Source: Thiobacillus sp. (GTDB lineage: Bacteria; Pseudomonadota; Gammaproteobacteria; Burkholderiales; Thiobacillaceae). Taken from it: a stretch of DNA of 32,316 bases. How positions within the stretch are numbered: position 1 is the first letter of the stretch; each line of letters begins with the position of its first letter. Of the stretch, positions 4,772 through 18,011 are shown one piece after another. The position numbers and the translations under genes are program-made. The stretch is taken from the NCBI GenBank assembly GCA_013335435.1, contig JAAXVP010000006.1, positions 1 through 32,316 on the forward strand. Direction: 5' to 3'. The notes below the pieces were generated by a model, which worked only from the letters and a program-made list of their open reading frames with translations, was not told where the DNA came from and did not search any database.

Positions 4772-4799
4772 AAAAACGCCGCTTCCGCGGCGTTTTTTT
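4772..4799. terminator. Strong bidirectional intrinsic terminator
   Basis: An 11-bp perfect stem (AAAAACGCCGC, 4772-4782, with its complement from 4787), a TTCC loop and a run of seven T. The A-run on the left arm makes it work equally on the minus strand. It separates the rightward ankyrin gene from the leftward mutarotase gene, which ends at 4816. Confidence 0.92.
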
Positions 4800-8859: not shown

Positions 8860-8935
8860 GGGCCGATAGCTCAGCTGGGAGAGCGCTGCGTTCGCAATGC
8901 AGAGGTCGGGAGTTCGATCCTCCTTCGGTCCACCA
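8860..8935 (+). tRNA. tRNA-Ala (anticodon CGC)
   Basis: A complete 76-nt cloverleaf. The acceptor stem GGGCCGA pairs with TCGGTCC and includes the G3:U70 wobble pair that is the alanine identity element. The D arm is GCTC/GAGC. The anticodon stem CTGCG/TGCAG holds the loop TTCGCAA with anticodon CGC, reading GCG. The T arm is GGGAG-TTCGATC-CTCCT. The CCA end is encoded in the DNA. In a GC-rich genome GCG is likely a common alanine codon. Confidence 0.97.
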
Positions 8936-15682: not shown

Positions 15683-15770
15683 GGGCGGACGCAGTCGACG
15701 AGAGGGGGTAAGGGAATTACGGGACCCCGCATTGTAGCACTGCAAGGCCTGCCCAGAGGCCGTGAAATGT

Positions 15771-15800
15771 TTGACAAATTAGGGGCTTAAAAGGTCTAAT
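15771..15800 (+). promoter_or_regulatory. Strong sigma70-type promoter of rpmH-rnpA
   Basis: A perfect TTGACA (15771-15776), an 18-base spacer and TCTAAT (15795-15800, one mismatch). The predicted start near 15807 gives a leader of about 32 bases with SD AGGA (15829-15832) six bases before the rpmH ATG. This is the best promoter match in the window. Confidence 0.8.
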
Positions 15801-15838
15801 ACGCCGCTTTTACGTATTGTCGTAATTTAGGAATAACC

Positions 15839-15973
15839 ATGAAACGCACTTATCAGCCCTCCGTAGTCCGTCGCAAGCGCACCCACGGCTTCCGCGCCCG
15901 CATGAAGACCAAGGGTGGTCGCGCGGTCATCAACGCTCGCCGCGCCAAGGGCCGCAAGCGTCTCGCCGTTTGA
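15839..15973 (+). CDS. rpmH: Ribosomal protein bL34
   Basis: A 44-residue, very basic protein of the large ribosomal subunit beginning [18 protein letters not shown] and ending [11 protein letters not shown], the full-length bL34 pattern. It is the marker gene upstream of rnpA beside dnaA in most bacteria. It is read divergently from dnaA from a strong promoter. The TGA ends nine bases before the chosen rnpA ATG. Confidence 0.98.
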
Positions 15974-15981
15974 CGGACAGC

Positions 15982-16350
15982 ATGCACCGGGGGCGGTACG
16001 CCTTCGGTTGGGACAGTAAACTCAGGAAAACGGATGATTTTTCATCCGTTTTTCGTTTCAAGCGAGCCCAGCGGGGCAGTCATCTGGACATATTCTTCCG
16101 CGATAATGGACTCGCTTATCCGCGCCTGGGCCTGATCGTACCGAAGAAGATACTGGCCTTGGCAGTAATCCGGAACCGGACCAAGCGGGTATTGCGTGAA
16201 GCTTTCCGGCTCGGCCAGGCCGAGTTGGGTGGATTGGACGTAGTCATCCGGGTCAAGGCCGCCGGCCGGGATGCCGATTACCGGACGCAGTGGGATCAGT
16301 TCGTGCGCAGACGCGCCGGTCGAGCCCAAGCTGCTCCGGTCAACGAATGA
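15982..16350 (+). CDS. rnpA: Ribonuclease P protein component
   Basis: The 122-residue basic protein that partners the RNase P RNA in 5' maturation of tRNAs. The order of features is correct: SKLRKTDDFSSVFRF (binding of the pre-tRNA leader), RLGLIVPKK, and the RNR motif with NRTKRVLREAFR. ATG at 15982 is chosen; a TTG at 15970 overlapping the rpmH stop would add four residues and cannot be ruled out, as rnpA often uses a weak start. Codons for KTDDFSSVF coincide with a terminator-like hairpin. yidC starts 11 bases after its stop, with no yidD between. Confidence 0.93.
   Translation: MHRGRYAFGWDSKLRKTDDFSSVFRFKRAQRGSHLDIFFRDNGLAYPRLGLIVPKKILALAVIRNRTKRVLREAFRLGQAELGGLDVVIRVKAAGRDADYRTQWDQFVRRRAGRAQAAPVNE
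16025..16054 (+). terminator. Terminator-like hairpin inside rnpA (possible attenuator)
   Basis: AAAACGGATGA (16027-16037), a TTTT loop and TCATCCGTTTT (16042-16052), a perfect 11-bp stem followed by a further T, with the outer G25-C54 also able to pair. It begins about 50 bases after the rpmH stop. Translation through rnpA would be expected to melt it; free RNA would terminate. Confidence 0.55.
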
Positions 16351-16361
16351 ACGGGTAGAAC

Positions 16362-18011
16362 ATGGATTTGCAACGCATCGTCGCCTTCGTCGTGTTTTCC
16401 TTCTCCTTGCTGATGCTCTGGAATGCATGGCAGGACTATAACCATCCCAAGCCGGCCGTGGTTACGCAGGCGGGTGGCCAGCAGACGGCAAACCCGGCCC
16501 TGCCGACGCCCGGCCAGTCCCTGCAGGCGCCGCAGCAGGCAGCGGCCCCCTCTACCGGACAGGTCGCCGTGGGCACCCGCGCGGTGGTCAAGACCGATGT
16601 CATGACCGCCACCGTCGACGCCAATGGCGGCGACATCCGCGAACTGGTCCTGCCCGCCTACCGCCGCAACGAGGACAGGACCAAGCAGTTCGTCCTGTTC
16701 GAGGAACAGCCCGGCCGCAGCTACTTCGCCCAGTCCGGCTTCGTCGGCGACGGCATGGTCAACCACAAGACGGTCTACGAACTGGTACCCGGCGAATACG
16801 ACCTCAAGCCCGGCCAGGACACCGTCAGGTTGAGCATGAAGGCGACGGTCGGCGGCGCCGAGGTGGTGAAGACCTATACCTTCACCCGCGGCAGCTATGT
16901 GATCGGTGTCGACTACAGCGTCCACAACATCGGCAGCGCCCCGCTGCAAGGCTTCCCCTACTACCAGCTGGCCCGCCACGGCAAGGCACCCGAAGGCGAA
17001 TCTTCCTTCGTCTACACCTTCACCGGCCCGGCCATGTACACCGAGGAAGGCAAGTTCCAGAAGATCAAGTTCGAGGACATCGCCAAGGGCAAGGCCGACC
17101 ACGTCAAGGCCGCCCCGGACGGTTGGATCGGCATGATCCAGCACCACTTCGTCGCCGCCTGGCTGCCCGCCTCGGACGACCACGACAAGCGCGAGTTCTA
17201 CACCCGCTCCCTGGACAACGGCGAATACAGCGCCGGCCTGATCCTGCCGGCCGTCCAGGTCGCACCGGGCGAGACCAAGAGCACTTCGATGCGCCTGTAC
17301 GCCGGCCCGCAGGACCAGGAGAAGCTCAAGGAACTGGCCCCCGGCCTGGAGCACGTGGTCGACTACGGCTGGCTCACCATCCTGGCCTATCCCCTGTTCA
17401 TCCTCCTCAACTGGCTGGAAAACCTGGTCCACAACTGGGGCGTCGCCATCATCCTGCTCACCGTGCTCATCAAGGGCGCCTTCTATCCCCTGTCCGCGGC
17501 CAGCTACAAGTCGATGGCCCAGATGCGCAAGCTGGCGCCGCGCCTGCAGCATCTCAAGGAGCGCTACGGCGACGACCGCCAGAAGCTGCATGAAGCGATG
17601 ATGAAGGTCTACAAGGACGAGAAGATCAATCCGCTCGGTGGTTGCCTGCCCATCCTGGTGCAAATCCCGGTCTTCATCGCCCTGTACTGGGTGCTGATGG
17701 GCGCGGTCGAACTGCGCCAGGCGCCCTTCGCCCTGTGGATCACCGACCTGTCCGCCGCCGACCCGTACTACGTCCTGCCGGTCATCATGGCGGCGACCAT
17801 GTTCATCCAGCAGAAGCTGTCGCCGACGCCGCCCGATCCGGTCCAGGCCAAGGTCATGATGTTCATGCCGATCGCCTTCTCGGTGTTCTTCTTCTTCTTC
17901 CCGGCCGGCCTGGTGCTCTACTGGCTGGTCAACAACGTCCTGTCCATCCTGCAGCAATGGCGCATCAACCACGTGATCGAACGCGCCGGACATGGCAGCA
18001 AGACCGCATGA
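16362..18011 (+). CDS. yidC: Membrane protein insertase YidC
   Basis: A 549-residue Oxa1/YidC family insertase for inner-membrane proteins, working alone or with SecYEG. An N-terminal helix (about residues 5-22, [18 protein letters not shown]) leads to a large periplasmic domain with [11 protein letters not shown] and [16 protein letters not shown]. The C-terminal five-helix core holds [20 protein letters not shown] with the conserved groove arginine/lysine region, [20 protein letters not shown] and [13 protein letters not shown]. It starts 11 bases after rnpA and its last 20 bases overlap the mnmE start. It is the likely insertase for the Fo subunits a and c encoded further right. Confidence 0.96.

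Follow-up and report, generated by a model that had tools for sequence, protein, structure and literature searches.

How might a bacterium draw from a single operon two proteins that it needs in very different amounts? Ribosomal protein L34 is needed at the level of the ribosome, whereas far less of the RNase P protein suffices. In most bacteria, according to the available part of PMC10941002, the products of rpmH and rnpA come from one operon. The question is posed by a 32,316-nt stretch of Thiobacillus sp. DNA (the window), in which a hairpin followed by a T-rich tract is written into the early codons of rnpA, amid the following features:

15771-15800, + strand: candidate sigma-70-type promoter of rpmH, picked by eye (TTGACA at 15771-15776, 18 nt, TCTAAT at 15795-15800)
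15839-15973, + strand: rpmH, ribosomal protein L34, 44 aa (Pfam Ribosomal_L34, 6.1e-24)
15970 (TTG) or 15982 (ATG) to 16350, + strand: rnpA, RNase P protein (Pfam Ribonuclease_P, 2.3e-25)
16027-16037, + strand: left arm of a perfect 11-bp stem, AAAACGGATGA, with core ACGGATGA at 16030-16037 and A-tract at 16027-16030; its codons are frozen in relatives
16038-16041, + strand: 4-nt loop, TTTT, varying freely in relatives
16042-16052, + strand: right arm of the stem, TCATCCGTTTT, with core TCATCCGT at 16042-16049
16049-16058, + strand: U-tract TTTTT-CG-TTT, coded by GTT TTT CGT TTC, with predicted RNA 3' ends near here
16362-18011, + strand: yidC, the next gene downstream (Pfam YidC_periplas, 4.7e-89, and 60KD_IMP, 8.5e-66)

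We propose, with a probability of roughly 0.78, that the hairpin is a Rho-independent terminator of + strand transcription, placed in the rnpA codons about 50 nt past the rpmH stop, which would lower RnpA below L34 while permitting read-through; yidC would be on the same read-through transcript as rnpA. The candidate rpmH promoter at 15771-15800 was not listed by a consensus scan. In the presumed rpmH leader there is a short inverted repeat, TTACG-TATTGT-CGTAA (15810-15825), and the interval 16350-16362 leaves no space for a yidD between rnpA and yidC, the order in E. coli being rnpA-yidD-yidC.

The initial annotation had described an intrinsic-terminator-like hairpin at 16025-16054, with a perfect 11-bp stem inside the KTDDFSSVFRF codons, and the sequence bears this out. 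The perfect stem spans 16027-16052 and is extended by G16025-C16054 and G16026·T16053 to 13 bp with one G·U; at this full length it begins 52 nt after the rpmH stop, which ends at 15973, and its codons, AAA ACG GAT GAT TTT TCA TCC GTT TTT CGT TTC, lie in the RnpA frame. The whole has the form of an intrinsic terminator, with an 8-bp core (ACGGATGA-TTTT-TCATCCGT, 16030-16049) that holds 4 G-C pairs, a 4-nt loop, 13 bp in total, and, directly behind the stem, T5 (16049-16053) followed by CG and TTT (16056-16058). A 45-nt stretch folds on the + strand at -18.4 kcal/mol, whereas its shuffles average -5.9 (z -5.81; none of 200 as good), and a single fold of 89 nt of the window leaves the hairpin intact. 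Its D score (of the d'Aubenton-Carafa type) on the + strand, 23.6, is the smallest among the four + strand matches with D > 0 in the window. By this score it would be a moderate terminator, with only 4 G-C pairs in the stem and a U-run 5 long. The best-scoring terminator-like hairpin in the window lies at 4777-4792 (D 48.0 and 42.2 on the two strands). A stock consensus scan of the window did not list the rnpA hairpin, we think because it extended the stem into the hairpin's own T-tract.

For comparison, rpmH-rnpA loci were gathered by protein similarity, independently of the hairpin, from the Thiobacillus stretch's own family, from 80 genomes of 49 other families of the order and from 11 named loci; among named relatives Parasulfuritortus cantonensis is closest by RnpA (78%). 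All 161 loci, including 30 taken by DNA pattern, match the RnpA profile. Dropping these 30 and merging identical 210-nt stretches left 126 unique loci, 63 of which encode the protein motif [TA]D[DE][FYIL]SSV[FIL]. The 63 loci that lack it include L037-L041, four of the five being titled as non-betaproteobacteria; L037 is titled uncultured Methanobrevibacter yet carries bacterial rpmH and rnpA, so that its contig is probably misbinned.

Within the motif loci the codons of the stem and U-tract are nearly invariant: TCC and GTT each occur in 63/63, TTT and GAT in 62/63, TCA in 61/63, and ACG in all 55 loci with Thr at that position, the loci counted including related sequences, which are not independent. 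In the remainder of the same genes the corresponding fractions are 0.21 for TCC, 0.20 for GTT, 0.43 for TTT, 0.50 for GAT, 0.15 for TCA and 0.31 for ACG. Taken alone, the 80-genome sample with its 30 motif loci gives the same picture (TCC and GTT 30/30, TTT and GAT 29/30, TCA 28/30, ACG in 27 of 27 Thr codons), as do the 23 motif loci whose G+C exceeds 0.60 (TCC and GTT 23/23, TTT 22/23). Expressed as normalised synonymous entropy, the six stem and U-tract codons score 0.00-0.12 and the Lys codon of the A-tract 0.31, as against 0.66 and 0.80 for the two loop codons and 0.76-1.00 for 21 conserved control codons elsewhere in the same genes. Across the 63 loci the first loop codon is GAG in 37, GAA in 12, GAT in 11 and GAC in 3, and the second is TTT in 48, TTC in 10, TAT in 3, ATC in 1 and ATT in 1. 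Relatives thus show no free synonymous drift in the stem. As a conserved feature of these relatives the hairpin is more than a chance palindrome, and, judged from the sequences, hairpin and U-tract are kept by selection on nucleotides and not on the protein.

Base pairing was followed in 85 unique loci, where the search pattern had fixed the other stem letters, so that the result bears on the free positions only. In two stem pairs both partners are synonymously free. The first is G-C in 85/85; for the second, 73 loci have T-A, 11 have C-G and 1 has T·G, the C-G form, with both sides changed, occurring in families f37 (4 genomes) and f49 (7 genomes), and the T·G form in a single f37 genome. At the outer pair 56 loci have A-T and 29 have G·T, and no core stem pair among the 85 is non-standard. 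Behind the stem the conservation is one-sided. Counted from the Phe codon, positions +10 to +14 are T in 62-63 of the 63 motif loci; the codon at +5, after the U-run, ends in T in 61/63 and is followed by TT in 63/63. When this codon encodes Arg it is CGT in 40/40. The mirror Arg codon at -5 is free (CGC 17, AGA 8, CGA 3, AGG 2, CGT 1, CGG 1), and Arg at +7 uses six codons. The 80-genome sample contributes only 7 Arg at +5, all CGT, and its +5 codon ends in T in 28/30; the other 33 of the 40 CGT codons are chiefly those of the Thiobacillus stretch's own family. The T kept behind the U-run, together with the free mirror codon, favors an intrinsic terminator on the + strand rather than a DNA palindrome. 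The original suggestion of a terminator in the rnpA codons is thus strongly supported by synonymous freezing, compensatory change, a free loop and a one-sided U-tract.

Several other explanations have to be set against these patterns. Were KTD[DE]FSSVF conserved for RNase P, the hairpin would be a by-product of protein constraint and codon bias, and the motif residues are indeed fixed in the motif-bearing lineages; but codon choice is free at conserved residues in other parts of these genes (entropy 0.76-1.00), RnpA is still encoded by the half of the 126 loci that have no motif, TCA, GTT, TTT and CGT persist in G+C-rich loci, and the L009 lineage, with FSAVFRF, writes TCT GCC GTC TTC. With stem codons frozen and control codons free, we reject this explanation as scarcely credible. 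A DNA site for a dimeric protein, close to the origin-linked dnaA-rpmH region, would suit the perfect palindrome, its variable center and the one copy per genome among the matches listed, as for a single special site. That single copy, though, leaves no regulon, and a multi-copy regulatory site was rejected on the same count; moreover the invariant downstream CGT (40/40) faces a free Arg codon upstream, and the two-sided change from T-A to C-G suits pairing, even if a symmetric DNA site could change likewise. We regard such a site as improbable.

Among RNA-level explanations, a terminator for - strand antisense transcription, or a bidirectional one, could draw on the left A-tract, which reads as T4 on the - strand (D = 6.9), and on the Lys codon, AAA in 50/53. 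The - strand side is nonetheless both weaker (its fold gives -13.6 kcal/mol, z -3.97) and less conserved, with A at -10, -11 and -12 in 59, 60 and 54 of 63 motif loci versus T in 62-63 of 63, which makes the antisense reading highly improbable. A selected hairpin that does not terminate transcription, serving as an RNase landing site, a pause site, a translational roadblock or a protector of the 3' end left on the rpmH mRNA by cleavage or by Rho termination farther downstream, deserves more weight, since stem conservation and compensatory change suit any RNA hairpin. The T residues behind the core stem (GTT 63/63, TTT 62/63, T of the next codon 61/63) would be needless for a plain hairpin, and pairing with the A-tract could explain the first of these T but cannot extend to the last; hence we consider a non-terminating hairpin unlikely. 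Known RNA families yielded little: at the curated threshold the only Rfam match in the window is a tRNA (8860-8932), and a permissive scan of 15700-16400 gave three matches (16 to 21.4 bits), each of them on the - strand and under the threshold. One candidate, the Burkholderia sRNA BcKCsr2 (- strand, E 0.43, 16 bits), was rejected after failing to recur in the loci of 9 relatives at E 0.5.

The + strand terminator that we prefer has a patchy distribution. By a separate rule, terminator-like sites occur in 61/63 motif loci versus 2/63 others (shuffles: 20/1260 and 10/1260), so that 61 of the 63 non-motif loci have none between rpmH and early rnpA; likewise D exceeds 0 in 63/63 motif loci versus 1/63 others. 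Within the 80-genome sample of the order the hairpin is present in 30 genomes, from 20 of the 49 families besides the Thiobacillus stretch's own, and absent in 50, and protein motif and hairpin agree in 80/80. Because these 50 genomes and the non-motif loci do without the hairpin, an rpmH-rnpA operon can work in its absence. Of 399 genomes of the order, 133 contain the exact palindrome, and all 30 loci retrieved from among the matches listed fall in RnpA-positive frames. A degenerate coding pattern matched in 29 of 61 re-examined genomes, most of them without the exact palindrome, 28 times in RnpA frames; one match outside rnpA (G134), GCCGACGA-GTGA-TCGTCGGT followed by T4, is itself terminator-like. 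In a sample of the class the coding pattern was found in 2/370 genomes, the Thiobacillus stretch and G158, both inside the order, and in 0/365 class genomes outside it; a reversed-pattern control gave one match (G833). For other orders 80 genomes were searched, 3 of them without an rpmH match, and the 77 rpmH-rnpA loci had 3 terminator-like sites by a similar rule applied with no shuffle control, all of them beyond the rpmH stop (offsets 31, 119 and 127). One genome of another order (L212) has an 18-bp perfect stem soon after the rpmH stop, with no T-tract.

Presence and absence also alternate among close relatives. The L009 locus just mentioned belongs to a genus (g6) of which three other loci (L008, L011, L016) keep the motif; families f31, f20 and f43 are mixed for the hairpin in the sample, and genus g45 of f34 is mixed as well. 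The element can be lost, then, with the residues going along. This joint loss is the ground for a bolder reading, to which we give slightly less than even odds: one ancestral translation-sensitive terminator would have dictated TD[DE]FSSVF across about 20 betaproteobacterial families, lineages that lost the signal losing codons and residues with it, and RnpA synthesis would be self-gated, because only ribosomes on its first codons would let the polymerase pass. The association of motif and hairpin could also come from shared ancestry.

As to how such a terminator might operate, most polymerases from the rpmH promoter would stop in the U-tract near 16049-16058, releasing a short rpmH mRNA and yielding L34 in excess, and a minority would read through, allowing RnpA and YidC to be made. 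Less certainly, read-through may need a ribosome, possibly one re-initiating after rpmH, to be on rnpA in time to cover the left arm, which would tie RnpA output to translation of its own first codons. The distance from the rpmH stop to the Phe codon is 50 to 203 nt in the 63 motif loci. For a trp-type or riboswitch attenuator, which would call for a conserved leader upstream and an antiterminator fold competing with the hairpin, the relevant observations are this spread and the single 89-nt fold that leaves the hairpin intact. Since the left arm of the core is at least 41 nt from the stop, ribosomes finishing rpmH would not reach the hairpin, and as they stop short only ribosomes on rnpA could cover it. 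The rnpA start was thought from the outset to be weak, and this view has held: in a crude scan ATG 15982 has a 3-nt Shine-Dalgarno match and TTG 15970, which overlaps the rpmH stop as TTGA (an overlap of at most 4 nt), has none. In 17/63 motif loci neither ATG nor GTG lies in frame upstream, and in L004 and L007 a TTG overlapping the rpmH stop is the sole in-frame ATG, GTG or TTG from there up to the motif. Given a weak start and a hairpin opposed by ribosomes, termination is predicted to be frequent and rpmH mRNA to be in excess. The hairpin sits where translating ribosomes could cover it, which could alter its efficiency in the cell.

If correct, a terminator within codons would show how one clade sets its L34:RnpA ratio and would be a clear case of selection at the RNA level fixing residues of an essential protein. 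It would also be a caution that recoding rnpA synonymously, optimising its codons or taking RnpA conservation as catalytic can mislead.

A precedent for the general design is the rpsU-dnaG-rpoD operon of E. coli, in which an intrinsic terminator between rpsU and dnaG lowers the downstream gene. There too a partial intrinsic terminator behind a small ribosomal-protein gene reduces expression of a scarce essential enzyme; unlike it, the Thiobacillus signal lies inside the codons of the downstream gene, with letters common to the protein. Coupled ribosomes, as stated in the available part of PMC5021804, stop the hairpins of intrinsic terminators from forming, and two coding-region terminators of E. 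coli described there, in rsxC and narY, both terminate in vitro, that of rsxC only with NusA. These resemble the rnpA signal as intrinsic terminators within codons and opposed by translation; they differ in that they were found singly and in one species, whereas the rnpA signal is orthologous in many families and marked by synonymous freezing. The nested rpmH/rnpA genes of Thermus (PMC9841429, accessible portion) are likewise an unusual arrangement tying L34 to RNase P protein expression, but there rpmH is nested in rnpA with neighboring start codons, and in Thiobacillus the genes are consecutive (rpmH 15839-15973, rnpA from 15970 or 15982 to 16350), so that a Thermus-type arrangement was rejected. 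We found no report of a terminator in betaproteobacterial rnpA in the mostly open-access literature searched; nor is such an element mentioned in the available portions of PMC10941002, PMC9841429, PMC5688073, PMC10100675 and PMC4652775.

The rnpA of E. coli K-12 (L164, 416-438) also bears a perfect 8-bp stem, GGGAGTTA/TAACTCCC, in its first codons, but differs from the Thiobacillus hairpin in position and sequence and is without a U-tract behind it. The rnpA region of the L037 contig has a stem, GGAGTTAC/GTAACTCC, that resembles the one of E. coli.
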